The notes under the pieces were generated by a model, which was given only the letters and a program-made list of their open reading frames with translations, was not told where the DNA came from and ran no database searches. From positions 1 through 64,000 of the forward strand of contig NZ_CALXKQ010000009.1 of assembly GCF_944388875.1 (NCBI RefSeq): 64,000 bases of DNA, given 5' to 3'. The stretch's first letter is position 1; the number at the start of each line of letters is the position of its first letter. A program made the position numbers and the translations under genes. This document shows, piece by piece, positions 19,911 to 33,876 of the stretch. The stretch comes from an uncultured Brachyspira sp. (GTDB lineage Bacteria > Spirochaetota > Brachyspiria > Brachyspirales > Brachyspiraceae).

Positions 19911-20024
19911 AATGAAATAATATACAATATAAATGTTTAAAAATCTATATAAATAATTATCTAATCTTGTATTTTATTTATTAACATTATATTATTAGTA
20001 TAAAATTATTTATTGGAGATTAAA

Positions 20025-20861
20025 ATGATGATATTAGACGGAAGAGAATTAGCAAAAGGAATTAAAGAAAATATTAAAAAAAGAGTAGATGAATTGAGTA
20101 AAAAGCCAAGAATAGATTTTTTATATTTTGAAAATGATAAATCATCAGAAGTTTATTTTACCAGAGCAAAAAAGCAGGCAGAAAGCGTAGGTATGACAGC
20201 TTCTCTTCATAATCTCCAAGAAAACACAACAGAGAATGATTTTTTAACATTAATAGAATATTTAAATAAAGAAAAAGAAACCAGCGGAATAATAGTTCAA
20301 ATGCCTCTGCCTAGTCATATAAGCAAGAAGAAAGTTTATGAAACAATATCGCCTGAAAAAGATGTTGATGCTATATCTTATATTAATTTGGGAAGAATTT
20401 TCATGGGTGAAACTGTACTTTCTCCATGTACTGCCAAAAGCTCTATTGCTTTAATTGAGAAATCAGGAGTTCAGATAGAGGGGGCTAATGCCGTTGTTAT
20501 AGGAAGAAGCGAAATAGTAGGAAAGCCTCTTGCTCATCTTCTTCTTCAAAGATCTGCCACCGTTACAATAGCACATTCAAAAACTAAAAACTTAAAAGAT
20601 ATATGTAAGAATGCTGATATATTATGCGTATCTATAGGAAAGGCAGAGTTTATAACTGGAGAATATATAAAAGAAAATGCTGTAGTTATAGATATAGGAA
20701 TTAATGTATTAGAAGACGGTTCTTTAAAAGGAGATGTTAATTTTGAAGAGGCTTCAAAGTTAGCTTCTGCTATTACTCCTGTTCCTAATGGCGTAGGAAG
20801 CGTTACTGTGGCTATGCTTTTAGATAATCTGCTTTATCTTCATACTAAATATAATTCTTAA
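20025..20861 (+). CDS. folD: bifunctional methylene-THF dehydrogenase/cyclohydrolase
   Basis: Interconverts 5,10-methylene-THF and 10-formyl-THF in the cytosolic one-carbon pathway. The 278-residue protein has VYFTRAKKQAE with the catalytic Lys region, IVQMPLPSHI, and the Rossmann GRSEIVGKPLAHLL and TPVPNGVGSVT motifs. The start at ATG 20025 follows GGAG at 8-base spacing; an in-frame TTG at 20013 overlaps that ribosome site. Confidence 0.96.
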   Translation: MMILDGRELAKGIKENIKKRVDELSKKPRIDFLYFENDKSSEVYFTRAKKQAESVGMTASLHNLQENTTENDFLTLIEYLNKEKETSGIIVQMPLPSHISKKKVYETISPEKDVDAISYINLGRIFMGETVLSPCTAKSSIALIEKSGVQIEGANAVVIGRSEIVGKPLAHLLLQRSATVTIAHSKTKNLKDICKNADILCVSIGKAEFITGEYIKENAVVIDIGINVLEDGSLKGDVNFEEASKLASAITPVPNGVGSVTVAMLLDNLLYLHTKYNS

Positions 20862-20870
20862 AAATTATAA

Positions 20871-20911
20871 AAAATAATGCATGAACTAATTTTTAAATCA
20901 TGCATTATTTT
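20871..20911. terminator. bidirectional terminator folD / radical SAM gene
   Basis: A 14-bp perfect stem, AAAATAATGCATGA (20871-20884) with its complement at 20898-20911, around a 13-base loop. The A- and T-rich stem bases serve as U-tracts in both directions. It overlaps the last codons of the convergent radical SAM gene and would end that long minus-strand transcript. Confidence 0.82.
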
Positions 20912-21471
20912 AATATATCAAAAAAATCATCAGGATATCCATACATATCGATTCTGCCGTTTTCATCAATTTCTATTTCTACATAAGTGCCGTTTACTAT
21001 ATCTTCTTTTTTGTATCTGTCAGTTAAAAACTCAATTAGCTGATTATCCGAACCGTAAAGATGATTATTAATATTTCTTTTTTCTTCTATATATCTTCCT
21101 GATATTAATATGTCGGCATAAGAGAGTACTGAATTTTTACTGCTGCTTAAAATCTCATCCTTTTCATATCCTGTATAAAGTATTATGCCAATATTAAGAC
21201 TTTTGATATTTTTCATTAATTGTATAGTTTCTTCAAGCTGATCTAAAGGCTCTCCTCCAAGTATAGTAACATTATTAATATCATATTTTATTACAGAATC
21301 TTTTATTTGGGAAATTATATTTTCTATACTAATTTCTTCTCCGCCTTCAAAACTATGCATAGAATAATTCCAGCATCCTTTGCATCTCAATTTACAGCCT
21401 TGAGTCCATATAACAAAACTATTCCCAAAGCCGTAAATCTTTGAATGCTTTTTAATATGAGCTATACGCAT
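20905..21471 (-). CDS. 4Fe-4S single-cluster radical SAM protein (NrdG-like)
   Basis: A 188-residue radical SAM protein of the activating-enzyme class. CKLRCKGC carries the three cluster cysteines, followed by LGGEPLDQ. It resembles NrdG and pyruvate-formate-lyase activases, but no anaerobic ribonucleotide reductase lies nearby. It is the last gene of the large AAA+/paralog cluster, 4 bases after the DUF1257-like gene. Association of such a protein with DUF1257 and DUF2997 genes suggests it acts in that system. The substrate is unknown. Confidence 0.82.
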   Translation of the reverse strand: MRIAHIKKHSKIYGFGNSFVIWTQGCKLRCKGCWNYSMHSFEGGEEISIENIISQIKDSVIKYDINNVTILGGEPLDQLEETIQLMKNIKSLNIGIILYTGYEKDEILSSSKNSVLSYADILISGRYIEEKRNINNHLYGSDNQLIEFLTDRYKKEDIVNGTYVEIEIDENGRIDMYGYPDDFFDILK

Positions 21472-21475
21472 AAAT

Positions 21476-21886
21476 CTATCTTGCTTCTCTCACCAAAGTA
21501 AGCTGTATCTTATTATCCTTTTTCACTTCCATTACTTTATATCCTTTAGCCTTTGCCTTTTCCATAATGGCTTTTTTCTGAGATTCTATAAACTCAAGTC
21601 TTTCTCTCTCAAGTCTTTCTCTCTCTTCTTCAAGCTTTCTTTCATAAACTTTATTATATTCCGCTTCCAATTTTTGAAGAAATGAAGATATTTCGCTGTT
21701 ATAACTGTCATAGCTTAATACATATTTTCCATTAACTAATTTAAAATATGTATTTCTAAATCTATGCAGAGATGGAATATAAATTTTATCATTCTTTAAT
21801 TCATACTGATATCCGCAATTTTTAAGTGCCTCTAAAAGTATTTCCTCATTAATAAAAGGTGTAGTAGTTTTTACTAAACAGCTCAT
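21476..21886 (-). CDS. DUF1257 (Ycf35-like) family protein
   Basis: A 136-residue protein. The start MSCLVKTTTPFINEEILLEAL and the strand-rich region after it match the DUF1257 family, known in plastids and cyanobacteria as Ycf35. The middle (residues ~75-115) is a charged coiled coil rich in Glu and Arg. The C-terminus ends with a short beta hairpin. Function is unknown. It overlaps the DUF2997-like gene by four bases (ATGA-type coupling). Confidence 0.72.
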   Translation of the reverse strand: MSCLVKTTTPFINEEILLEALKNCGYQYELKNDKIYIPSLHRFRNTYFKLVNGKYVLSYDSYNSEISSFLQKLEAEYNKVYERKLEEERERLERERLEFIESQKKAIMEKAKAKGYKVMEVKKDNKIQLTLVREAR

Positions 21887-22089
21887 TGAATACCTCCTTT
21901 TTGTATTTTTTGCTGCTGAGTATTAATCTTCTGATTATACTCATCTGTTTTTTTAATGTCTTTTATATTAGAAATTTCATCAAGCAAAGCATTAACCTCA
22001 TCCAAACAAGCCTCGCCCTTTATACCGTCAGTTTTAACATTGAGGCTTCCGTCCTCATTTATTGTTATTGTAATTCTTTCTTCTCTCAT
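21883..22089 (-). CDS. DUF2997-like small protein
   Basis: A 68-residue protein. MREERITITINEDGSLNVKTDG followed by GEACLDEVNALLDEI fits the DUF2997 pattern: a beta hairpin, then a helix preceded by a conserved Cys-containing turn. The last ~20 residues are Gln/Lys-rich. Such proteins are commonly encoded beside DUF1257, as here. Molecular function is unknown. It starts 3 bases after the upstream paralog stops. Confidence 0.68.
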   Translation of the reverse strand: MREERITITINEDGSLNVKTDGIKGEACLDEVNALLDEISNIKDIKKTDEYNQKINTQQQKIQKGGIQ

Positions 22090-22092
22090 AAA

Positions 22093-23268
22093 TTATACTC
22101 CTTTATTTTTTAATATATTTAAATATTCTTTTATATTTGCAAATGGAATTAACTGAGACAGCATTAAAAAGTCATTATCATGTTTATATAAATTTTCTAA
22201 TGTATTTAATAGATAATTACTATTAAATATTATTATTATTTCTATTATTCTAATAAAATATTTTTTTAATAATTTAGTATTTTCAGTTTCAAAGGCTTTT
22301 ACAACATCCGCTAATAAGGCTCTATTCAATCTAAACATTTCTCTAAATAATCCTACAGCAAGAGGTCCGTGAAATCCTACAGCAAGAGGTCTATTTATGG
22401 TTAAACCTGTTAAATAATTTATTATATTTGATAAACTATATTCGGTATCTTCGCCATATATGTCAATGAATACATAATTATTTGTTTTTATCTCTTTCTC
22501 TAAATAATACTTTTTATCATCATCAAAAATAGACAAAAATGCTTCTTCATTTATATTAAAAAGATATCTTAATATTTTTATATCTATGCAAGAGTTAAGC
22601 TCTTGATTATTTTCAAATATTTCAAAAAAATACAATCTTTTTTTATTTGGTATATTTTTAAGCATATAAAATGATTTTAATTCATTTTCATTAATATTAC
22701 TAATATTATTTTTAATTGATGAAAAATCATCTTTATTTATATGAATGCATTTAAAAACTTCATCAAATTCAAAATCTATTTCTTTTTTATTTAAAATTAT
22801 TTTAAATATTTCCAATGTATCATAAGATATTAATGTATATAATATTCTATTAAAGTTATTATCCTCTGAATAATTTATATCATCTTTATTTAGAATATTT
22901 TTAATATGCGAATTAAAAAATAATCCTTTTTCATAAACTCCAATTTCTTTAATATGATAATTGTAAATATAATCGGTATTTTTACACTTATACTTTGATG
23001 ATAGTATTTTTAATAATGCCTCTCTTTTATCATCATCTAAAATAAATAAAATATTAAGAAATGAATTTTTTATTTTTAAATCTTCTATAGAATTATAAAT
23101 ATTATTAAAATACTCTTTTTGAGAATCTGAAATGCTTTCATTAACTATTTTTTTACCTACATTAAGAAGCAGATTTTCTCTGTCTTCTTTATTAAGTCCA
23201 TTTAAAAATACTTCTCTTTCATTTTCAGGAAGTTTATAATACATATTTTCGAATAAAGATAAAGACAT
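22093..23268 (-). CDS. cluster paralog 8, helical-repeat protein lacking the C-terminal module
   Basis: A 391-residue member of the tandem family. The N-terminus MSLSLFENMYYKLPENERE matches its three upstream neighbours, as do the recurring 'IxPxxKRxxFFExFENN' helices. It lacks the shared C-terminal KKxNKSSLAYIMD module and ends in an unrelated Ile/Asn-rich helical region. Near residue 295 there is a small tandem duplication, PLAVGFHGPLAVGL, also visible as a direct DNA repeat at about 22358-22395. AAGGAG precedes the start. Function unknown. Confidence 0.85.
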   Translation of the reverse strand: MSLSLFENMYYKLPENEREVFLNGLNKEDRENLLLNVGKKIVNESISDSQKEYFNNIYNSIEDLKIKNSFLNILFILDDDKREALLKILSSKYKCKNTDYIYNYHIKEIGVYEKGLFFNSHIKNILNKDDINYSEDNNFNRILYTLISYDTLEIFKIILNKKEIDFEFDEVFKCIHINKDDFSSIKNNISNINENELKSFYMLKNIPNKKRLYFFEIFENNQELNSCIDIKILRYLFNINEEAFLSIFDDDKKYYLEKEIKTNNYVFIDIYGEDTEYSLSNIINYLTGLTINRPLAVGFHGPLAVGLFREMFRLNRALLADVVKAFETENTKLLKKYFIRIIEIIIIFNSNYLLNTLENLYKHDNDFLMLSQLIPFANIKEYLNILKNKGV

Positions 23269-23269
23269 A

Positions 23270-24769
23270 TTAATTCTCCTTAATATGATCTATAAGTTTT
23301 ATATTATCATTATCTTCCATAATATAATTTATAGAAGACTGATTATTCCTTTTATAGTACACAGTTTTATACAGGTTATTAATATAATCTATAATCTTAT
23401 TAAATTTTTTAATATCTTTAATTCCTGAATCTAAAATATTTTCTATATCATCGCATGATTTTTGATACTGCTTTTTATTATTATCATCTAAGTCTTTTAT
23501 AAGCCATGATATTTCTGTTAATTTAGCTTTGCATTTGCTTAGATATTTTATTAGTATTTGATTGTCTAAATCTGATGAATAAGCATTAAATAAACTTAAA
23601 TAATTATTCATTTGATATATATTTACATATTTTGATAATGAAATAAAATCTTTTATATTTTCTATATTATTAATATATTTAAGGGAATCCAAAACATTAT
23701 TAATTTCAAGCTTCATAATAATATCTAATATTCTATTAAGAACAAAACGCTCGATATTTTCCAATTGATTGTATAAAGCAGCAATAATAGAAATAATCTG
23801 TCCTCCGAAAAGAACAAGCATGCGAAGTCCTTGAGAGCCGTTTGTTAAAAACTCTCTGATTTCAGAATTCATGCCGCTTTTATTAAGAAAAAAAGTTTCT
23901 ATATCTTTTGCATCTTTAAGAAATATCAAATTATTATTTCCGCTGCTCCATAAAGTATTAACTATGCTTGTATTATTAGGAAATATAAAGCCTATACCGC
24001 TTTCTGTATTAATCCAAGCAAAACTGGTACCGCTTTTATTATTTAAATCTATTTTTTGATTATCCATATTATTTCTGAATATTTCTAAAAAAGCCTCTTT
24101 ATTTGTATTAAGCATATTCCTAAGAATTTTTATAAATGCAACGTCCCTAAGTTCATCCGTATTTTCAAATTGATTAAAAAAGTATTCTTTTTTGTCTTCA
24201 GGTATATTAAAAAGAACTTCTAAAAATTTTGAATTAAGCTCTCTTGTATCATAATAATTATCAAAGTTATAATCATATTTTCCAAAAAAATCATTAGCTT
24301 GAGAACTTATATTAATATATCCGAATGAGTTTAAAATTTCTATAACTTTTGATGATATTGCAATATATATAATTCTGTAAAACTCAGATTCATTTCCTTT
24401 AATGTTTTCTATAATAGAATCGATATCATTTTTTCTGTTTGGAACTATATTTTTTATATTATCTTTGGACATGCTATAGGAGTAATTTATTTTGCAGTCA
24501 TTTATAGTTTCAAATATTTGTAAAAAATCATTTCTTTTTGATTTGATTATGCTGTTAAATACGGTCAAAAAAGAGTTTTTATCATTATCAGGTATGCTGC
24601 TGAATATATTTTTAAAATATTCTTTTTTATTATCATCAACATTTAATAAAGCATTATCTCTATTTATTACAAATAATAATTTTTCTTTTTCATTTCTAGG
24701 CAGACTCTTAAAAAAAATCTCTCTTTCATTTTCAGGAAGACTGTAATAAATATCCTCATAAAATGCCAT
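23270..24769 (-). CDS. cluster paralog 7, helical repeats plus C-terminal module
   Basis: A 499-residue protein. Residues 1-100 carry the family N-terminus (MAFYEDIYYSLPENERE). Residues ~190-250 have the LFNIPEDKKEYFFNQFEN and LRNMLNTNKEAFLEIFRN helices. The last ~85 residues are the shared module with both invariant cysteines (LSKCKAKL and KSCDDIE), but the terminal motif is diverged, KRNNQSSINYIME. A region around 235-300 is not shared with the neighbours. No signal peptide; predicted cytosolic. Function unknown. Confidence 0.85.
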   Translation of the reverse strand: MAFYEDIYYSLPENEREIFFKSLPRNEKEKLLFVINRDNALLNVDDNKKEYFKNIFSSIPDNDKNSFLTVFNSIIKSKRNDFLQIFETINDCKINYSYSMSKDNIKNIVPNRKNDIDSIIENIKGNESEFYRIIYIAISSKVIEILNSFGYINISSQANDFFGKYDYNFDNYYDTRELNSKFLEVLFNIPEDKKEYFFNQFENTDELRDVAFIKILRNMLNTNKEAFLEIFRNNMDNQKIDLNNKSGTSFAWINTESGIGFIFPNNTSIVNTLWSSGNNNLIFLKDAKDIETFFLNKSGMNSEIREFLTNGSQGLRMLVLFGGQIISIIAALYNQLENIERFVLNRILDIIMKLEINNVLDSLKYINNIENIKDFISLSKYVNIYQMNNYLSLFNAYSSDLDNQILIKYLSKCKAKLTEISWLIKDLDDNNKKQYQKSCDDIENILDSGIKDIKKFNKIIDYINNLYKTVYYKRNNQSSINYIMEDNDNIKLIDHIKEN

Positions 24770-24781
24770 ATTAAAAACTCC

Positions 24782-26182
24782 TTAATTAATGTACTCTATA
24801 TATTTAATATTTTCGTCTTCATCATCCATTATATAAGCCAAAGAAGATTTATTATGCTTTTTATAATAGGCATTTTTGTATATATTATTGATATGCTCTA
24901 TAATTTTATTAAACTTTTCTTTGTTTTCAATTCCTCTGTCAAGTACAGAGTCAATTTCTTTACATGACTTTTTATAATCTTCTTTAATTGCATGCTCAAA
25001 ATCTTCTATAAGCCATGATATTTCTGTTAATTTTGCTTTACATTTACTTAAATATTCTATATAGATATCATTATCTATACTTGTAGCATTATTATTATAA
25101 GTAAACTCGTTATCATTAATTTGTGTTTCTTTTGCATTTTTTTCTGATTTATTTGAAACATTTGAGAATAAATTTATATAATCTTCTAATTTTTCTAATA
25201 CAACAATTGATGAAAAATGATTTACACTTTCCTGCATATTTTCATCTAAACTCTCAAATATATCAATAAGCTTTTTAGTTTGAAAATTAACAATACTCTC
25301 AAAGATTCTTAAGAAAAAGAAAGATTCTATTTTAGACTGAAAACATTTATATATATCAATAATCCTACTATAATTATAAGAATCTTCCAAATAATCTAAT
25401 ATAGTTTTTTTTTCATCTGTAGTAGAAAGAGAAGTTCCCCATCTCCATGCTCCAGCATAACTAATATCCCTAACATTATTTATATCTGCTTCTTTTACAT
25501 TTTTAAATATATATAAAAATAAATCTCTATCCATATTTAATACTACTCTAAACATTTTGATAAACTCTGAATCTTTAAACTCTGAATTCTTTTCAAATTC
25601 TTCAAAGAAATATATTATTTTTTCTTCAGGAAATTTATAAAGCATATTAAGAAGTTTTTCATTATTATTTTTATAATAGTTATATTTACTTTCAAGTGAA
25701 TAAATATTCAGAAGTGAATTATTAAAATAGTTATATGATATTTGAGAAATTACTGATACAACTTCTATAATTTTTATATCAATAATAAATTGCAATATTC
25801 TTCTAAATTTTCTTAAATTCAAAAATTTATTTAATTTTTCTTTATACTGATCAAATATATCTGCTATAATAGTTAGGTTGTTATACTCTTCTGAAATTCT
25901 TTTATCATTAATATTATTAGAAACAATATCTAATAATATTTCTCTTTTATCTTCATCTAAATAATTAAAAATATCAATAAATGATTTCTTTGTTTTTTCA
26001 TCTTTCAATTCTTTATAAATACTTTCGAATCTTTCTTTTTGATTATTGGATACATTTGAATAAAGATCATTTTTTTTCAAAGAAAGCATTAATGATTGTC
26101 TGTCTTCTTCTGACAAACTATTTATAAAAGTTTCCCGCTCATTTTCTGGGAGGCTGTAATACATATCCTCATAAAAAGCCAT
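24782..26182 (-). CDS. cluster paralog 6, helical repeats plus C-terminal module
   Basis: A 466-residue protein with the same architecture as its neighbours: N-terminal MAFYEDMYYSLPENERETF, repeated helices such as YKFPEEKIIYFFEEFEKN and NMDRDLFLYIFKN, and the C-terminal module with CKAKLTEI, KSCKEID and KKHNKSSLAYIMD. The repeated 'LPEExRxxFFxxL' pattern recalls alpha-helical repeat scaffolds, a structural impression only. The gap to paralog 7 is 12 bases and AGGAG precedes the start. Confidence 0.85.
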   Translation of the reverse strand: MAFYEDMYYSLPENERETFINSLSEEDRQSLMLSLKKNDLYSNVSNNQKERFESIYKELKDEKTKKSFIDIFNYLDEDKREILLDIVSNNINDKRISEEYNNLTIIADIFDQYKEKLNKFLNLRKFRRILQFIIDIKIIEVVSVISQISYNYFNNSLLNIYSLESKYNYYKNNNEKLLNMLYKFPEEKIIYFFEEFEKNSEFKDSEFIKMFRVVLNMDRDLFLYIFKNVKEADINNVRDISYAGAWRWGTSLSTTDEKKTILDYLEDSYNYSRIIDIYKCFQSKIESFFFLRIFESIVNFQTKKLIDIFESLDENMQESVNHFSSIVVLEKLEDYINLFSNVSNKSEKNAKETQINDNEFTYNNNATSIDNDIYIEYLSKCKAKLTEISWLIEDFEHAIKEDYKKSCKEIDSVLDRGIENKEKFNKIIEHINNIYKNAYYKKHNKSSLAYIMDDEDENIKYIEYIN

Positions 26183-26244: not shown

Positions 26245-27558
26245 TTATATTTCTATCTTCTCCATAAGCTCAATCTCATCATCTATATCCATTATAAGCA
26301 ATAGAGTAGATTTATTATACTTCTTATAATAAGCCGTTCTGTAAAGCTGATTTATATCATCTATTATTTCATTTAACTTATATTTATCGCTTATGCCGAA
26401 GTCCAAAATATTTTCTATTTCCAAACAGGCATTATTATAATATTCTTTTACAGCATACTCAAAATCTTCAGAAAAATATATTATATCTTTAATTTTTTCT
26501 TTGCATTTTGATATATATTTGTAGTCTATATAATTACTATTGACAATCTCTATTTCTTCTTCTTTGCTTTCCTCTGTATAACTGAATATATTTAAATAGT
26601 TTTCTATATTTTCAAATGTTATATAATATGAAAGAAGCAGAAAATTTTCTCTTATATCTTCTCCAAGGCTGTCAAAAACCTCTAATAATTCTTTAACCTT
26701 AAACTTCAAAACAGATTCTAAAACTCTGAAAAATACTTTGCATTCTATCTCTGATTTTAATATCTCATAAAAACTATTTATAGAACTGTAATAATCAAAA
26801 TATATATTTCTGCAAACCTGAGAAGAGTAAATGTTATATGATTTATGTATGTATGATTCCTTATTTATATCCTCAAAAATATCTAAAAAAAGTTCCTCAT
26901 CCATATCAAGTATTACTTCAAGCATCTTAATAAACTCATTATTTTTAATGTGATCATTATTTTTAAACTCTTCAAAGAAAAATATTCTTCTCTCTCTAGG
27001 TATATTAAAAAGTATATTCAATAATTTCTCAGAACTTTTGCCTTTATATTTATGCTTGTATGAATTCATTTTTATATAAGAATTATTTACTAAACTGTAT
27101 TCATAATTATATAATTCTTTTAATATCTCAGACATCTTTATATCTATAATAACTTTTAAAAGTCTTTTAAATAAAGTGTCATCAGAAAATCTTAAAAGTT
27201 TATTCATGTCTATTTTTTCATAATCCTTACATATATTTTTTAAATCATTAAAGTCATTAAAAAAATATAAAGCATCCGTATTTATATTATTAAAAAGCAT
27301 CTCCAATAATAAATATCTTTTCTCTTCATTTAAATTATTAAATATATATAAAAAAGCATCCTTATCTTTTTCTTTCATCATTCTTTCGTATATATTAGTA
27401 AATTTTTCTCGCTGTTTATCTGATGCATTTTTTAAATATAAATTATTTCTTTTAATAGTTCCAAGCAGTTCGTTTTTTTCTTCTTCGGATAAGCTATTAA
27501 TAAATATTTCTCTATCGCTCTCTTCTAAATTATAATAAATATCGTCATAAAAAGACAT
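26245..27558 (-). CDS. cluster paralog 5, helical repeats plus C-terminal module
   Basis: A 437-residue protein. I chose ATG 27558 so that it begins MSFYDDIYYNLEESDRE like the other paralogs; the frame from 27591 adds 11 unconserved residues. Helical repeats run to about residue 330 (LFNIPRERRIFFFEEFKN, LDMDEELFLDIFED). The module follows with CKEKIKDI, NACLEIE and KKYNKSTLLLIMD. Function unknown. Confidence 0.84.
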   Translation of the reverse strand: MSFYDDIYYNLEESDREIFINSLSEEEKNELLGTIKRNNLYLKNASDKQREKFTNIYERMMKEKDKDAFLYIFNNLNEEKRYLLLEMLFNNINTDALYFFNDFNDLKNICKDYEKIDMNKLLRFSDDTLFKRLLKVIIDIKMSEILKELYNYEYSLVNNSYIKMNSYKHKYKGKSSEKLLNILFNIPRERRIFFFEEFKNNDHIKNNEFIKMLEVILDMDEELFLDIFEDINKESYIHKSYNIYSSQVCRNIYFDYYSSINSFYEILKSEIECKVFFRVLESVLKFKVKELLEVFDSLGEDIRENFLLLSYYITFENIENYLNIFSYTEESKEEEIEIVNSNYIDYKYISKCKEKIKDIIYFSEDFEYAVKEYYNNACLEIENILDFGISDKYKLNEIIDDINQLYRTAYYKKYNKSTLLLIMDIDDEIELMEKIEI

Positions 27559-27655
27559 AATTCTCTCATCCCCCTTAACAACTATGTCCAATATAAATTA
27601 AAATTATAAACAATATTTAAATAATTTCTATATTAATAATAAATATTTTTTAATA

Positions 27656-28312
27656 TTAATTTTCAACAAACTCATTAACATTTATAGTTTCTATAAAATT
27701 AATATCTTCATCATTATCCATTATAAAAGCAAGAGATGACTTATTATTTTTTTTATAATAAGCACTTCTGTATAAATTATTAATATAGTCTATAACATTA
27801 TTAAATCTATCAACAAAATCATTAATGCTCTTTGTACCTTTCATAGTATTAAAATCTTCTTCCAAACTTCTTTGCAAATCTAAACAAGAATCTTCATAGC
27901 TTTTTCTTGAGGCATAATCAAAATCTTTTATAAGATTTTTTACTTCCTCTATCTTTAATCTGCATTCATTTGCTGAAGAGTTTATTTTTATTTTAAACTT
28001 TTCTATATTTATTTTTATAGTTTCTTTTTTGTTTTCATCATTTTTATCTTCTCTATTTTTTGATTCATTATTTTCTTTATTGCCGTATACAGAATTACTA
28101 TTGCTATTTTCACCGAACATTATATCATAAGTTATATCATCTATATCATCTGCTATACTGTTTAAATTATCTGCTACCGTATTGGCAAGCTCTTCAATAT
28201 TGTCAATAAAATCCATAAAGTTATAATATGTATTTCTATTGGAATTACTGAAGTTTTTGAACTTATCCTTTAATTCATTAACTTTTTTATCAAAAGAAGT
28301 ATTATTGCTCAT
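27656..28312 (-). CDS. cluster paralog 4, short protein with C-terminal module
   Basis: A 218-residue protein in which the helical-repeat N-terminus is replaced by an amphipathic region (ELANTVADNLNSIADDIDD) and a hydrophilic Asn/Glu/Lys linker. The C-terminal module has CRLKIEEV, DSCLDLQ and KKNNKSSLAFIMD, with a ~10-residue insertion in the middle. GGAGG precedes the start, and the start overlaps the paralog 3 gene by 11 bases. Function unknown. Confidence 0.85.
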   Translation of the reverse strand: MSNNTSFDKKVNELKDKFKNFSNSNRNTYYNFMDFIDNIEELANTVADNLNSIADDIDDITYDIMFGENSNSNSVYGNKENNESKNREDKNDENKKETIKINIEKFKIKINSSANECRLKIEEVKNLIKDFDYASRKSYEDSCLDLQRSLEEDFNTMKGTKSINDFVDRFNNVIDYINNLYRSAYYKKNNKSSLAFIMDNDEDINFIETINVNEFVEN

Positions 28313-28847
28313 TAATATCCTCCAGTTTTATTAAATCAAGCTCATTATCATCATCCATTATAAAAGCAAGAGATGATTTGTTATGCTTTTTATAATAAGC
28401 ACTTCTGTATAAATTATTTATGTATTCTATAGTTTTATTTAAATCATCATAAGTCTTTATATATTCTAAACTCTTTTCCAAATCTATACAAGAATCTTCA
28501 TAACTTTTTCTTGAAGAATAATCGAAGTTTTCTATTAATTCTTTTATCTCTTTAATTTTATCTTTGCATTTATTAATAATATTGATGCTTATATCTTTTT
28601 TAAGCTCTTTGCTGTCGGCAATGATTTCTTTTTCTGCTTTTTTGTCTTTTGACATAGTATGACTGTTTATTTCTTTAACAGCCGCTGCATTACTATTTTT
28701 TGATGATGTTCTTTTTATTCTAGCATTGTTTTTATTATTTTTTCTATTTTCTGCCTTCTCTATTTTTTCATTTAAAAACTGCAAAGTGTCTTCAAATTTC
28801 TCATCAAAACCATCAACAGCATCTGCAATAATTTCAAAAATACTCAT
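28302..28847 (-). CDS. cluster paralog 3, short protein with C-terminal module
   Basis: A 181-residue protein. Residues 1-40 are an amphipathic helix (IFEIIADAVDGFDEKFEDTL), then a basic Lys/Asn/Ala/Ser linker, then the module: CKDKIKEI, DSCIDLE, KKHNKSSLAFIMD. Its module is closest to that of paralog 4, including the FDYxSRKSYEDSC stretch, suggesting a pairwise duplication. Function unknown. Confidence 0.85.
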   Translation of the reverse strand: MSIFEIIADAVDGFDEKFEDTLQFLNEKIEKAENRKNNKNNARIKRTSSKNSNAAAVKEINSHTMSKDKKAEKEIIADSKELKKDISINIINKCKDKIKEIKELIENFDYSSRKSYEDSCIDLEKSLEYIKTYDDLNKTIEYINNLYRSAYYKKHNKSSLAFIMDDDNELDLIKLEDINEQ

Positions 28848-28936: not shown

Positions 28937-29623
28937 TTAAATATTCTCAATCAAATCAATATCGTCTTCTTCTACATCCATTATATAAGCGAGAGAAGAT
29001 TTATTATGCTTTTTATTATAAGCATTTCTGTATAAATTATTAATCTCATCTATAATTTTATTAAGTTCATATTTATTGTCAATACCGTTATTTAATCTTT
29101 TTTCTATATCATCGCATTCTTTATGATAATCATTTTTTATCATATATTCAAAGTCTTTAGAAAGTTCTTTTATTTCTTTTAATTTATCCATGCATTTCTG
29201 ATTTATGCTGTTTATTTTTTCTTTTATATTTGAAGCCTCTGAATATAGTTTATTAGTTTCATCAACTATATCATTTAACTTATTTAAAGCCTTTTTTATA
29301 TCTTTTGATAAATTAGCTTTAGCATTTTTTAACTGTTTTTCTATTTCTTTTTCTAATGCATTGCATTCTTCTATTAAAGCATTATCATTCAAGCAATTTT
29401 TTAGGGATAATACTTTTTCCTTGCAGTTATTTAATGTGTCTTTAAATATTTCTATATGCTGAGATATATCTTCTTTTACTAATTTTGATTTGGATTTATT
29501 TTTAGTGGAAACTTTAGAATTAGCTGATGCCTTCTTTTTAACTGATTTTTTTATAATTTTTATTTTAGTTGATTTTTTTACTGATGCAGTTTTTTTAGAT
29601 GACGGTTTCTTTTTAGATGCCAT
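28937..29623 (-). CDS. cluster paralog 2, histone-H1-like basic tail plus C-terminal module
   Basis: A 228-residue protein. The first ~50 residues are almost only Lys, Ser, Ala and Thr (MASKKKPSSKKTASVKKS and on), as in bacterial H1-like DNA-binding tails. A coiled-coil segment with its own CKEKV start follows (~60-125), possibly a degenerate extra module copy. The standard module completes it: CMDKLKEI, KECDDIE, KKHNKSSLAYIMD. Binding to DNA or RNA is inferred from charge only. The 3' ~250 bases are nearly identical to those of paralog 1. Confidence 0.85.
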   Translation of the reverse strand: MASKKKPSSKKTASVKKSTKIKIIKKSVKKKASANSKVSTKNKSKSKLVKEDISQHIEIFKDTLNNCKEKVLSLKNCLNDNALIEECNALEKEIEKQLKNAKANLSKDIKKALNKLNDIVDETNKLYSEASNIKEKINSINQKCMDKLKEIKELSKDFEYMIKNDYHKECDDIEKRLNNGIDNKYELNKIIDEINNLYRNAYNKKHNKSSLAYIMDVEEDDIDLIENI

Positions 29624-30262: not shown

Positions 30263-30438
30263 TTCAAAAGCTTCTTTTATATTATTAAAAAACTTTTCTT
30301 TTTGAGATTCTGATAAATCTGAAAATTGATTTAAAAATTTTTTCTTTTCATTTTCTGAAGATGATATTTTTTAAATTCATCCTCAGTCATAGTAGTTTCT
30401 ACACCAAAATTTTTTATATTTAAAATCTTCTTAATCAT
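30263..30438 (-). pseudogene. frameshifted 5' part of cluster paralog 1
   Basis: Reading upstream in the paralog 1 frame gives SSSENEKKKFLNQFSDLSES and QKEKFFNNIKEAFE, the family N-terminal pattern (compare PENERETFINSL and NQKERF). That frame loses its start at an A6 run (minus strand 30372-30367). The preceding frame supplies ATG 30438 or ATG 30390 and MTEDEFKK. One extra A would join both parts. It may be a real mutation, a slippery site or a sequencing error. Confidence 0.6.
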
Positions 30439-30628
30439 CTATGTAATTTAAATTTGTATATAGATCTTCTTCAATGATTTTATTATATTTTTTATTTTCT
30501 TTGATATTTAGCTCCTGATTATAAAAATTTGTATTAATTCTTTATACTTTTATAAAAATTGTATTAATGAAAAAGTAAAAAACTATTCATTAATACAATT
30601 TATAATAAATACATTTAAATTTATTAAT
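30439..30628. other. intergenic gap with possible gene remnant
   Basis: No intact gene is present. The minus strand at about 30540-30439 is open and reads NQELNIKENKKYNKIIEE then ends NYIDD and stop, with no start codon found. This is possibly the 3' end of a lost paralog. A direct repeat of ATTAATACAA(A)TTTTTATAA flanks 30525-30600, and a hairpin is listed separately. Confidence 0.4.
30557..30600 (-). terminator. hairpin after the 198-aa gene
   Basis: A 14-bp perfect stem, AATTGTATTAATGA (30557-30570) with its complement (30587-30600), and a 16-base loop. On the minus strand it is followed by TTTTTATA. It lies 29 bases after the 198-aa gene stop, so it could separate the AAA+/198-aa pair from the paralogs or let only part of the transcription through. 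Confidence 0.55.
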
Positions 30629-31225
30629 CTAATTATTTTTATACTCTTTAAATATGTATTTAACAAAATATTTTACAGCGTTCTCATAACTTTTAATATT
30701 TATTTGATTATCTTTTTTTACTTCAAGAATTGGAGGAAAGTACTTATTAGGATCTGGCTCTTCATTTTCTATTCCGCTTATACTTTCTATAATATCATCA
30801 GTATCTACTGAATAATCTTCAGGAAAATCATAAATATCTATCATGTTTTTATCTTTGTTAGTAAGCATCTTTTGTACATTGAATCCTTTTGGTATGCCTG
30901 CCATTTTTTTCTTATCCAAAACTATTTCTCTTTTAATAAGTTCTTCCTCATTTACAGCTTTATTTTCTAAAAGGAAGTTTACTATATTATTTACACAATC
31001 TCCCATAGGGTTAACGCCTAAAGCACTGTTGTCTGGATTATCAATAATTATATTAAATTTATCCTTTTTCTTAATCAATGTGAATTTCAAATTTTCATTA
31101 TCAAAATCTGATTTATTTAAATCATAATTTCTCGTAGTTTTGAACCCAAATTTTCTAAGAGCTTTAATAAAAATATCTTCATTAATATCGCTGTCAATTA
31201 AAACTACTGTTATTTTATCTTTCAT
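30629..31225 (-). CDS. hypothetical protein encoded next to the AAA+ ATPase
   Basis: A 198-residue protein I do not recognise. It begins with a beta-alpha-beta-like segment (KITVVLIDSDINEDIFIKALRKFGF) recalling DUF1257-type starts, has a central VNPMGDCVNNIVNFLLENKAV helix, and a Pro/Asp-rich C-terminal half (EPDPNKYFPPILEV). GGAGG precedes the start, 30 bases after the AAA+ gene. Tight linkage suggests it works with the ATPase. No catalytic motif is visible. Confidence 0.75.
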   Translation of the reverse strand: MKDKITVVLIDSDINEDIFIKALRKFGFKTTRNYDLNKSDFDNENLKFTLIKKKDKFNIIIDNPDNSALGVNPMGDCVNNIVNFLLENKAVNEEELIKREIVLDKKKMAGIPKGFNVQKMLTNKDKNMIDIYDFPEDYSVDTDDIIESISGIENEEPDPNKYFPPILEVKKDNQINIKSYENAVKYFVKYIFKEYKNN

Positions 31226-31255: not shown

Positions 31256-32809
31256 TTACTGTATAAAAGGATTATACTGTTCTTGTTTTAATTGAGGAAC
31301 AGGCTTATCTTTTGAGGCTGAATCTTCTTCCCAAGCATTAGATGAAGCTAGTACTGCCCTTGCTTTTGCCCATCTTCTCATATCGCTTATATTTTCTTTC
31401 ATAGTTTTTGATATAGGGTAGGTTCTTTTCATGGCTTCTATTATATGCTCAGTTGTTACTTCCTTATCCTCATCAAATGCCCTGAACAATGCCTCTTTTA
31501 TAGCTTCTTCTATTTCAGCACCTGAGAATAACTCACATTCATCTGCAATTTTAGAAATATCAAAATTTTCGCTTTTTCTTTTGTATTTTCCTAAATGTAT
31601 TTTTATTATCTCTTCTCTGTCTGGCTTTAAAGGCAAATCAACAAAAAATATTTCATCAACACGTCCCTTTCTTAAAAGCTCTGGAGGAAGACCAGATATA
31701 TTATTTGCAGTGGCAACAACGAATACTGGTTTTTTCTTCTCCTGCATCCAAGTTAAAAATGTTCCAAGCACTCTTGAAGTAGTGCCTCCGTCAGTAGCTC
31801 CTGATGACTGCATACCTGAAAGCCCTTTTTCTATCTCATCTATCCAAAGTACTGAAGGAGAAACAGCTTCTGCTATTTTTAATGCTTTTCTAATATTGCC
31901 CTCAGATTCTCCTACTATACCAGCAAATATTTTACCCATATCTAATTTAATAATAGGAAACTGCCAAGCTGCACCTACCGCCTTAGCACATAAGCTTTTT
32001 CCTGTTCCCGGTATACCCAATAATAATATTCCTCTAGGTGTTTCAAGTCCGTAATCTTTAGCTCCCTGCTCAAATGCTCTTCCTCTTCTTCTAAGCCAAT
32101 TCTTTAATATATCAAGTCCGCCTATATCATCCAATGTTTCATTATGATGATAATATTCCAAATGACCGCTGTTTTTAATAATTGTTTCTTTCTCTGATAT
32201 TATTATTGGTATCTCTTCCTCTGTTAATTTTCCTGCCTGTACTATTGCTTTAGAAAATGCTCTTTTAGCTTCCATTATAGTTAACCCTAATGCAGAATCA
32301 ACAAGTTTTTCTTTATTTCCGCTTGGGGTTACATCATATTGCTTGCATGTATGCTCAAACATTACTGTCAAATCGCTTCTATCTGGCAAATCTTCCTCTA
32401 CAATATAAACATCCTTCTCTAATTCAAGAGGCAGGCATCTTTTTGTTTGTAAAAGTATTAAAGTTCTGTCGCTGTAATTACTGTATCCAATATCTCTCAT
32501 TTTGCTTATTAATCTTGGATTATCTTTTAAAAATAAATCATAGTCCTGAAGCATTAGTACAGAATCCTTTGCCTCATCGCTTTGATACCAATCCAAAATA
32601 AATAATGCATCGTCCTTGTCTTCTATTGAAGTAGATGTTTTTCCGTTATTTGACATCTTTTTAAGCCCTGAGGTAATGCTCCATTTATACCATGTTCTTT
32701 TTAATTCTGCAGCTGTTCTTGAAACTTCCCCTTCTATTCTCATAGTTTCATAGCTTATAACCTGCACAATATTTATAGATGAACGTATTAATATGCTTAA
32801 ATTTATCAT
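31256..32809 (-). CDS. Ycf46-like AAA+ ATPase
   Basis: A 517-residue protein. Residues ~1-215 form the Ycf46-type N-terminal half (ALFILDWYQ, RTLILLQTKRCLPLE). The conserved DDIGGLDILKNWLRRR linker leads into the AAA+ core: Walker A GIPGTGKS, Walker B SVLWIDEIEKG, sensor 1 VATANNI, arginine finger in LLRKGRVDE, sensor 2 SGAEIEEAIKEA. Ycf46 proteins are known from plastid genomes and cyanobacteria and have no settled function. It is the first gene of the cluster, with GGGGG before the start. It probably forms a hexamer that remodels a partner encoded downstream. Confidence 0.88.
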   Translation of the reverse strand: MINLSILIRSSINIVQVISYETMRIEGEVSRTAAELKRTWYKWSITSGLKKMSNNGKTSTSIEDKDDALFILDWYQSDEAKDSVLMLQDYDLFLKDNPRLISKMRDIGYSNYSDRTLILLQTKRCLPLELEKDVYIVEEDLPDRSDLTVMFEHTCKQYDVTPSGNKEKLVDSALGLTIMEAKRAFSKAIVQAGKLTEEEIPIIISEKETIIKNSGHLEYYHHNETLDDIGGLDILKNWLRRRGRAFEQGAKDYGLETPRGILLLGIPGTGKSLCAKAVGAAWQFPIIKLDMGKIFAGIVGESEGNIRKALKIAEAVSPSVLWIDEIEKGLSGMQSSGATDGGTTSRVLGTFLTWMQEKKKPVFVVATANNISGLPPELLRKGRVDEIFFVDLPLKPDREEIIKIHLGKYKRKSENFDISKIADECELFSGAEIEEAIKEALFRAFDEDKEVTTEHIIEAMKRTYPISKTMKENISDMRRWAKARAVLASSNAWEEDSASKDKPVPQLKQEQYNPFIQ

Positions 32810-32994
32810 AAAAAATCCCCCAAAAAATAGTATGCTTTTATGATAACATATATATAAAAAATGTAAACTCTTATATTGTAATAAGCATAAAAACTATTAT
32901 TCTAAAAACTATATTTATTTATATAAAAAATGCTAGAAATTAAAACAGTTTTATAGTACTATATTGCACAAAACTATACTTATTGGATATACCA

Positions 32995-33876
32995 ATGGAC
33001 AACGCTATTTCAAAAGAAACTATAAAATTTTTATTAGAATTACAGCAGAATGAAGTTACTGAGCATTCTGTTTATTTAAACTTAGCAAAGTTCGTAAAAA
33101 AAGAAGATGATAAAAATGTTCTCTTAAGCATAGCAAAAGAAGAATATGCACATGCTAAGATATTAGAAAAATATACGGGTAAAAAACTAAAGCCTAATAA
33201 ATTAAAAGTATTTAAGTTTTTTATATTAAGTATAATTTTTGGATACACTTTTGTTATAAAAATAATGGAAGGCGGCGAGAAGAATGCTGAGTATGTATAT
33301 TCAAAAATAGTTTCAGAAGTACCCGATGCAAAAAAGATAGCATTTGATGAAGATGAGCATGAAAATAAACTTATAGCTATTTTGGATGAAGAGAGATTAA
33401 AATATGTAGGTTCTATGGTGTTAGGTTTAAGCGATGCATTAGTTGAAATAAGCGGAACATTGGCAGGGCTTAGTTTTGCTTTGCAGAATAATAAACTTGT
33501 TGCATTATCTGGAATAATAACTGGAATATCAGCTACTTTGTCTATGGCTTCTTCTGAATATTTATCAGCTAAGGCGGACGGAGATAAAAATGCTTTTAAA
33601 TCATGTCTTTATACAGGGATAATGTATTTGATAACTGTAAGTCTTTTAATACTTCCTTATTTAGTATATCCTAATAATCATTATTTATATGCATTAATTA
33701 CAATGCTATGCGTAGTTGTATTCATTATATTTTTCTTTACTTACTATGTGTCGGTTGCTAAAAGTTTGCCTTTTAAAAAAAGATTTTTTGAAATGGCAGG
33801 AATTAGCTTGACTGTTGCTGGTATTAGTTTTTTGGTTGGTCTTTTAGTTAAACATTTTTTAGGTATAGATATATAA
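32995..33876 (+). CDS. ferritin-like/VIT1 membrane protein (MbfA-like)
   Basis: A 293-residue fusion. The N-terminal ~130 residues form a ferritin/rubrerythrin-like four-helix domain with iron-ligand candidates in NEVTEHSVYL, AKEEYAHAKIL and DEDEHENKL. A VIT1/CCC1-type membrane domain follows (LGLSDALVEISGTLAGLSFAL, then MASSEYLSAKADGD). Relatives export iron or manganese. I start at ATG 32995, since the TTG at 32983 overlaps the likely GGA ribosome site. It is divergent from the AAA+ gene. Confidence 0.85.
   Translation: MDNAISKETIKFLLELQQNEVTEHSVYLNLAKFVKKEDDKNVLLSIAKEEYAHAKILEKYTGKKLKPNKLKVFKFFILSIIFGYTFVIKIMEGGEKNAEYVYSKIVSEVPDAKKIAFDEDEHENKLIAILDEERLKYVGSMVLGLSDALVEISGTLAGLSFALQNNKLVALSGIITGISATLSMASSEYLSAKADGDKNAFKSCLYTGIMYLITVSLLILPYLVYPNNHYLYALITMLCVVVFIIFFFTYYVSVAKSLPFKKRFFEMAGISLTVAGISFLVGLLVKHFLGIDI

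Follow-up and report, generated by a model that had tools for sequence, protein, structure and literature searches.

Ycf35 and Ycf46, conserved in plastids and cyanobacteria, have long lacked a clear function. A 64,000-nucleotide stretch of DNA from an uncultured Brachyspira sp. (contig NZ_CALXKQ010000009.1; hereafter the window) carries related genes at opposite ends of one cluster in a nonphotosynthetic spirochete, together with a radical SAM gene and an array of paralogs. This raises the questions of whether these genes form one functional set, what the proteins encoded between them contribute, and what such a set might do. In the accessible parts of the literature searched, outside which most subscription journals lay, no description of a linkage between DUF1257, DUF2997, and a Ycf46-type AAA was found.

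Gene organization of the cluster

The cluster runs on the minus strand from 32809 to 20905 and comprises 13 open reading frames (ORFs), with the AAA ATPase gene at one end, 9 kb upstream of the trio of DUF2997, DUF1257-type (136-aa), and radical SAM genes at the other. The grouping of these four genes in the original prediction proved real: the three small ORFs were found at the positions listed below, and the AAA gene (31256 to 32809) was verified by its Pfam match (PF00004; E = 3.9e-29). Most of the 13 ORFs overlap or are separated by at most 90 bases, the sole larger intergenic gap being one of 366 bases between the 198- and 204-aa ORFs. Both flanks are on the plus strand: folD (20013 to 20861) on one side and a VIT/rubrerythrin-type gene (32983 to 33876) on the other. 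A promoter and terminator scan of the cluster returned 127 promoter-like sites versus 101 expected, an uninformative excess. The features are as follows.

31256..32809, minus strand: Ycf46-type AAA ATPase, 517 aa (Pfam AAA, structural match, motifs)
30629..31225, minus strand: 198-aa protein; N terminus resembles the N terminus of a 362-aa slot protein of another Brachyspira genome
29648..30262, minus strand: 204-aa slot protein with shared C-terminal domain (BLAST among paralogs, domain search)
28937..29623, minus strand: 228-aa slot protein with shared C-terminal domain (BLAST among paralogs, domain search)
28302..28847, minus strand: 181-aa slot protein with shared C-terminal domain (BLAST among paralogs, domain search)
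27656..28312, minus strand: 218-aa slot protein with shared C-terminal domain (BLAST among paralogs, domain search)
26245..27591, minus strand: 448-aa ORF with N-terminal helical and shared C-terminal domains; ATG probably at 27558 (BLAST, domain search)
24782..26182, minus strand: 466-aa protein with N-terminal helical and shared C-terminal three-helix domains (AlphaFold2, BLAST, domain search)
23270..24769, minus strand: 499-aa protein with N-terminal helical and shared C-terminal domains (BLAST, domain search)
22093..23268, minus strand: 391-aa paralog, N-terminal domain only (BLAST to the 466-, 499-, and 448-aa paralogs)
21883..22089, minus strand: DUF2997 protein, 68 aa (Pfam PF11211, alignment)
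21476..21886, minus strand: divergent DUF1257 (Ycf35-type) protein of 136 aa that contains a charged helical insert (hhalign, HMM matches)
20905..21471, minus strand: NrdG-like radical SAM protein, 188 aa (Pfam, CxxxCxxC and GGEP motifs)

Within the 366-base gap (30263 to 30628), one stretch is 63% alike to a repeat that the large paralogs contain. The N termini of the 198-aa protein and the 362-aa slot protein are similar in a two-sequence BLAST comparison (E = 6e-6), and since the 198- and 204-aa ORFs, taken together, look like portions of this single 362-aa protein, a slot gene may have decayed at the gap. The 198-aa protein had no Pfam match and no tblastn match in the other fetched loci; as a candidate DUF1257 homologue it was rejected, with a profile probability of 2.4%, or 12.2% with a relative added.

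A tandem AAA protein with an inactive first module

The 517-aa protein consists of a degenerate first module (D1; about residues 1 to 192) and an active second module (D2) with Walker A motif GIPGTGKS at 265 and Walker B motif VLWIDEIE at 320. An AlphaFold2 model built from a 15-sequence alignment (pLDDT, 76) matched p97/Cdc48 across residues 1 to 517, spanning the whole of D1 and D2. The best structural match covered 469 residues at about 20% identity, with an rmsd of 5.2 and a Z score of 21.8, the Z scores being a re-ranking of Foldseek's own matches. Held against the Cdc48/p97 pattern, the protein has two AAA modules in tandem and a Walker A in one of them only; all 38 of the 38 AAAs in the set possess exactly one Walker A, always in the second module. 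Because the match to p97/Cdc48 is full length and Walker A is found in D2 alone, the protein is a tandem AAA whose D1 is dead and which lacks a counterpart of the p97 N-domain. Thus, it resembles p97/Cdc48 in its tandem rings and in a D1-plus-D2 layout that spans the whole protein, but its D1 has lost Walker A and the N-domain is missing. Pore-loop 1 of p97 D2 carries an aromatic residue, as is usual in such motors; the window AAA reads IV at this place (alignment A5), so that threading by this protein is uncertain. "Ycf46-type" is a label that we apply by analogy, the comparison having been made with cyanobacterial plasmid copies only, and with those of Geminocystis and Pseudanabaena the window AAA shares 42.5% and 41.5% identity, respectively, over 95% of its length.

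In the mechanism that we propose, this protein would be the motor, a Cdc48/p97-like double ring with a dead first and a live second ring, working without the N-terminal cofactor-binding domain of p97. Since such a ring needs another binding route, DUF1257 and DUF2997, both small, often adjacent, and sometimes fused, are natural cofactor candidates.

DUF2997, a divergent DUF1257, and a radical SAM protein

The 68-aa protein belongs to DUF2997 (PF11211; E = 7.9e-8), its 32.5 bits exceeding the Pfam gathering cutoff of 24.1, and residues G25 and C28 are invariant in an alignment of 18 sequences. The 136-aa protein gave no match to Pfam DUF1257 (PF06868) up to E = 0.1 and none in NCBIfam. We compared an alignment of its family (A1; 11 sequences) with one of seven DUF1257-type proteins (A2) by hhalign, and the two aligned end to end with a probability of 96.6% (E = 6.2e-10), whereas 10 of 10 column-shuffled control alignments gave ≤0.4%. 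The A2 HMM also picks up the Brachyspira 136-aa-type proteins (E = 1e-3 to 1e-4), and the A1 HMM picks up a cyanobacterial plasmid DUF1257 (E = 6e-8). Of the two family assignments in the original prediction, that of the 68-aa protein to DUF2997 stood, and that of the 136-aa protein to DUF1257 failed at the level of Pfam and was recovered by hhalign and reciprocal HMMs. Because the profile comparison succeeds and the Pfam cutoff is missed, we treat the 136-aa protein as a distant homologue and no member by the Pfam rule; judged by profile comparison and gene position, it is a divergent DUF1257. A sequence search of the PDB returned no match for DUF1257 and nothing credible for DUF2997.

In two near-identical Clostridia loci (L118 and L119), DUF1257 and DUF2997 are fused in one 222-aa chain (HMM E = 1.5e-24 and 3e-14). 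Beside the AAA of a further locus (L116), the C-terminal end of a 177-aa protein is DUF2997 (HMM E = 3.3e-15), with a first part that looks DUF1257-like by eye only, without HMM confirmation. Because of the Clostridia fusions, the two proteins can be viewed as acting as one unit, which would probably serve as the cofactor or substrate adaptor of the motor.

The 188-aa protein matches Pfam Fer4_12 (E = 2.4e-31) and Radical_SAM (E = 2e-11), and its CxxxCxxC and GGEP motifs are invariant in 17 of 17 aligned relatives. Its best NCBIfam match is NrdG (TIGR02491), the activase of the anaerobic ribonucleotide reductase, which is likewise a radical SAM protein of similar size. However, the score of 102.6 bits falls short of the cutoff of 126.1 and the cluster has no NrdD, and identity with NrdG was rejected on these grounds. 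Two further NrdG-like genes in the window's genome are also below the NrdG cutoff. A radical SAM or ferredoxin gene adjoins the gene for a small protein whose Cys is invariant, an arrangement suggestive of modification or redox gating: the radical SAM protein would probably act in this way on a partner, the best candidate being the invariant Gly/Cys segment of DUF2997.

An alternative starting from the same adjacency is that DUF2997 is itself a small effector peptide, modified by the radical SAM enzyme and released or delivered by the AAA. A precedent is available in the accessible part of the study by Kaur et al. (2020), which describes conflict systems with β-propellers and a two-AAA protein whose first domain is inactive and proposes a radical SAM effector that modifies a peptide (PMC7159879). 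Nonetheless, phages and plasmids keep DUF2997 and its Cys although no radical SAM gene was present in the region read, DUF2997 can be fused to DUF1257, and neither a SPASM domain nor a leader-like region was seen; we consider this alternative quite unlikely. The FtsH ternary conflict systems of that study share with the present clusters a dead N-terminal and live C-terminal AAA, a radical SAM component, and β-propeller and helical proteins in the same systems. They differ in that the 13 Brachyspira cluster genes include no Pfam match to MoxR or vWA, and in that DUF1257 and DUF2997, which take part here, were not found in the portion of that paper available to us, nor was the paper among those that a literature search returned for these two names (PMC7159879).

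The slot between the AAA and DUF2997 genes

BLAST among the paralogs revealed an N-terminal helical module common to the 391-, 499-, 466-, and 448-aa proteins and a C-terminal module of about 90 residues in seven of the eight paralogs, ending with a conserved LYRxAYxKKxNKSSLxYIMD. An AlphaFold2 model of the 466-aa protein (pLDDT, 82.5) is helical with one β-hairpin, and its C-terminal module forms three helices. In a single Foldseek search against the PDB this model matched nothing at E ≤ 0.001 (best E, 4.3), a result that does not show a new fold.

Of 41 genomes searched with the last 110 residues of the 204-aa protein, six have the C-terminal domain, and these are precisely the six with DUF2997 among the 41; all 19 reported copies lie on contigs and stretches holding the cluster or its pieces. 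Copy number ranges from one in the most compact cluster (L007) through two in another (L010) to seven in the window. The slot was occupied in every Brachyspira cluster read; in L007, it holds one 299-aa protein with the shared C-terminal domain. The original prediction had the paralog array inserted between the parts of the machine. This view did not survive: a simple insertion between unrelated genes is rejected because the slot is always filled, in L007 as elsewhere, and because the domain tracks DUF2997 in exactly those six genomes. In a relative matching B. alvinipulli (G016, contig C3; L011:9735-12316 and L024:17962-19846), about 25 kb of other genes inside the slot interrupt the cluster, and two overlapping ORFs stand in place of one large paralog, as a frameshift would produce.

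Since otherwise different slot proteins share a C-terminal domain that is present only with the machine, we take this three-helix domain of the Brachyspira proteins as a candidate docking handle; the 391-aa paralog, which lacks the module, counts against the proposal. The slot proteins would then be exchangeable clients that the AAA assembles, disassembles, or releases. When the Brachyspira client domains were compared by profile with the slot proteins of Helicobacter and Bacteroidota, the probabilities were ≤0.4%.

Distribution and linkage in cellular genomes

Among named species, B. alvinipulli, B. innocens, and B. catarrhinii are closest to the window's host, which places it in Brachyspira. 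DUF2997 was detected in 6 of 25 Brachyspira genomes and in 0 of the 16 other spirochetes sampled. A closely related AAA (at least 77% identity) is present in 7 of these 41 genomes, one copy being on a 3.2-kb contig. The cluster adjoins folD in three Brachyspira genomes; in G022, folD is about 2.2 Mb away on the same contig.

Named genomes were scanned with the radical SAM protein alone, which yielded 24 loci, 5 in Brachyspira and 19 in other hosts, including Helicobacter, Bacteroidota, Treponema, Clostridia, Actinomycetota, and two archaea. An AAA is in the locus in 15 of the 19 non-Brachyspira cases and in 16 in total if Helicobacter rappini is included, whose AAA lies about 15 kb upstream of the radical SAM gene on the same contig. 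Most of these 16 loci also have DUF1257, DUF2997, or both. Eleven of the 19 have DUF2997 and 11 have a DUF1257-type protein by HMM, with full Pfam DUF1257 matches in the proteins of a Nanoarchaeia MAG, Methanoregula, and Actinomadura. All four genes were found within the locus read in only 7 of the 19, which counts against the proposed machine. In Treponema (L044), the AAA, DUF2997, DUF1257-type, and radical SAM genes stand side by side.

A search with DUF2997 only added nine loci beyond the radical SAM scan: one from Actinomycetota, one from Bacteroidota, and seven from the phylum of the Clostridiales genome. In six of the nine, an AAA of this layout with one Walker A was present within 8 kb, and in three it was absent. 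Two observations among these loci count against the machine: no AAA lies within 8 kb of the DUF1257-DUF2997 fusion at L118 and L119, and at one locus none of the partner genes was present. Sampled by DUF2997 only and with center genomes included, the other phyla gave 2 of 246 for Actinomycetota, 1 of 395 for Bacteroidota, 2 of 298 for Campylobacterota, and 7 of 398 for the phylum of the Clostridiales genome. The Pfam DUF2997 model may miss some members, because the Bacteroidota center genome went undetected despite the AAA, DUF1257-type, and radical SAM genes at its locus. HMMs A1, A2, A3, A5, and A6 were built partly from loci that were later counted, so that matches there are partly by construction; the first evidence at these loci is from BLAST and Pfam. 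Two pairs of loci, L118/L119 and L055/L056, are near-identical.

Plasmids, phages, and horizontal transfer

AAAs matching that of the window at E ≤ 1e-40 occur in 664 of 72,556 plasmid records. An AAA and DUF2997 are together on plasmids of Paenibacillus, Paenarthrobacter, Geminocystis, B. licheniformis, Pseudanabaena, and Nostoc, all of which except that of Paenarthrobacter also carry an annotated DUF1257. Searched against plasmid sequences, the 136-aa protein had no match, and a Paenibacillus DUF1257 matched only itself and a second strain. On a Klebsiella quasipneumoniae conjugative plasmid (L064), a related 715-aa AAA lies beside vWA, PP2C phosphatase, kinase, and CARF-domain genes. An AAA antitoxin of the SpoVK/Ycf46/Vps4 superfamily is described on SGI1 in the text available to us (PMC10954446).

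A phage DUF1257 query matched 21 of 50,697 phage records, redundant entries that represent four host groups. All 21 are among the 61 records that hold the AAA, with the two genes on the same strand and 0.9 to 1.8 kb apart by coordinates. DUF2997 follows DUF1257 in the four phage loci read, being annotated in RHph_I4 and above the Pfam cutoff in RcMenchie, SM1, and HJ05; no radical SAM or ferredoxin gene was seen beside these sets. Mycobacterium and Agrobacterium phages carry the AAA without a detected DUF1257 or DUF2997 among the neighbors tested. The AAA is held by Mycobacterium phage Bora (L074, the one read) and by 30 other Mycobacterium phage records, and these phages may hold diverged DUF1257 and DUF2997 partners.

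Alternatively, the machine could act as a chaperone in the assembly of large structures, for example, contractile injection systems or phage particles. On plasmid pTRESU01 of Treponema succinifaciens (L058 and L068), DUF1257 lies within a contractile injection (sheath/baseplate) gene run, and a second run of baseplate/VgrG genes holds a radical SAM gene and a Ycf46-type AAA; moreover, the phage AAA is located between lysis/tail and replication genes. Against this reading, we saw no structural genes, either in the Brachyspira cluster or, at the other plasmid loci read, among the genes with names, and PHROGs yielded no tail protein match for the slot proteins tested. We judge it very unlikely.

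In a 21-row AAA tree, the Brachyspira AAAs are sister to those of Helicobacter (support, 99/97) and Treponema groups with Bacteroidota (85/85), and a 38-row tree agreed. Forcing Brachyspira and Treponema together cost 29.7 log-likelihood units (p-AU = 0.0016), a P value weakened by the fact that the tested clade was named after the first tree had been seen. On this test, vertical inheritance of the AAA within spirochetes is rejected. Tree placement, patchiness, and the different chromosomal sites all speak for horizontal transfer, which the original prediction had suggested examining by phylogeny.

Other Brachyspira genomes contain a second Ycf46-type AAA system, as does another part of the window's genome (L029:8285-10625, L030:9493-11017, L028:4790-6298, and L032:9561-11679). 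Its neighbors encode ~310-aa proteins and glycine-rich proteins, some copies look broken or internally deleted, and in two genomes it lies beside the same folD, TPR, and Na:Ala symporter genes. That this folD flank, a hotspot, also houses the second system in two other Brachyspira genomes would be expected if the cluster genes were chance neighbors without a joint function. Yet the association of these genes is repeated in phages and across many phyla, at sites unrelated to one another, in several gene orders and sometimes with genes fused, which makes chance hardly credible.

The expected co-occurrence of the DUF1257, DUF2997, AAA, and radical SAM genes was thus borne out in other phyla, plasmids, and phages. 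Because related sets are carried by bacteria that are not close kin and by archaea, plasmids, and phages, the set is not bound to photosynthesis, in line with the conserved core independent of photosynthesis that had been proposed from the window.

Variable modules and a possible role in conflict

Outside Brachyspira, the loci contain other proteins. The SF1 helicase of the Helicobacter and Bacteroidota loci had MkoA as its best PADLOC model in four of four tested (E = 2.6e-48 to 6.7e-87), and the large protein of these loci contains a PLD-like stretch in one of five examined, scoring E = 1.3e-4 for PLDc_2, below the cutoff, and E = 5e-5 for MkoB. Hsp70 and WD40-type proteins are encoded in the Methanoregula and Actinomadura loci, the WD40 signal of the latter being weak, and helix-hairpin-helix proteins in those of Sebaldella and a Bacillota MAG. 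The SF1 helicase close to MkoA with the PLD-like protein, and the WD40 and Hsp70 proteins, would be the clients in these hosts. The Helicobacter and Bacteroidota versions thereby resemble Mokosh (MkoA/MkoB) in combining an SF1 helicase with a PLD-like partner; the 13 Brachyspira cluster genes, in contrast, have no helicase, PLD, or kinase Pfam match. To our knowledge, Mokosh does not include the AAA, DUF1257, DUF2997, or radical SAM genes. PADLOC named no system for the five window proteins submitted, which counts against defense: two slot proteins and the DUF1257-type protein had no match, the match of the AAA to IetA (E = 5.4e-21) was confined to its AAA domain, and pVip was a weak match for the radical SAM protein (E = 1.1e-4).

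Based on the patchiness, the plasmid and phage copies, and the MkoA-like helicase, we propose with moderate confidence that the set acts in biological conflict, such as phage defense. The Fed7 data argue for a role in stress instead. In the accessible part of the report on this protein, a DUF2997-ycf35-fed7 cluster is conserved in cyanobacteria, Fed7 is a [4Fe-4S] ferredoxin, and deletion of fed7 in Synechocystis causes sensitivity to oxidative, metal, and iron stress (PMC4284462). That cluster is similar to the present one in that DUF2997 and DUF1257 (ycf35) adjoin the gene of an Fe-S protein, but it has a ferredoxin instead of a radical SAM protein, no client array, and no AAA named in the part seen (PMC4284462). 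Under a redox or Fe-S stress maintenance model, the AAA with DUF1257 and DUF2997 would remodel or repair proteins under iron or oxidative stress, the Fe-S protein would donate electrons, and the array would be the proteins protected. A GrpE-Hsp70 pair beside DUF1257 and the AAA in Pseudanabaena is consistent with this model, as is the retention of ycf35 and ycf46 in red algae, which tracks habitat according to the available text (PMC5940233). Phage copies, like the Synechocystis stress data (PMC4284462), are also compatible with a housekeeping role. However, phages, plasmids, and a patchy spread in Brachyspira (6 of 25 genomes with DUF2997) would be odd for housekeeping, and an MkoA-like helicase is among the variable modules; we regard stress maintenance as rather unlikely.

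Altogether, we see about an even chance that the cluster is one mobile, modular Cdc48-like remodeling machine, with DUF1257 and DUF2997 as cofactors, an Fe-S/radical subunit, and exchangeable clients, probably serving conflict. The gene content, linkage, fusions, AAA fold, motif loss, and mobility are observed; the cofactor role, the modification, the docking, and the defense are what we propose on top of them. A bolder version is put forward tentatively, as a possibility: Ycf35 (DUF1257), DUF2997, and the Ycf46-type AAAs would be components of a single ancient Cdc48-like machine, a conflict system passed among bacteria, archaea, plasmids, and phages, whose interchangeable clients bear a dedicated docking domain; the radical SAM partner would chemically activate DUF2997, and the cyanobacterial and plastid genes would be domesticated versions.

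Here, a Cdc48-like tandem AAA whose first ring is dead is linked to a radical enzyme and two very small partner proteins, and this small gene set is amenable to biochemical tests in laboratory hosts. Since a DUF1257 homologue and a Ycf46-type AAA belong to a single transferable set that anaerobes, archaea, and phages carry, the basic activity of these proteins would not be photosynthetic.
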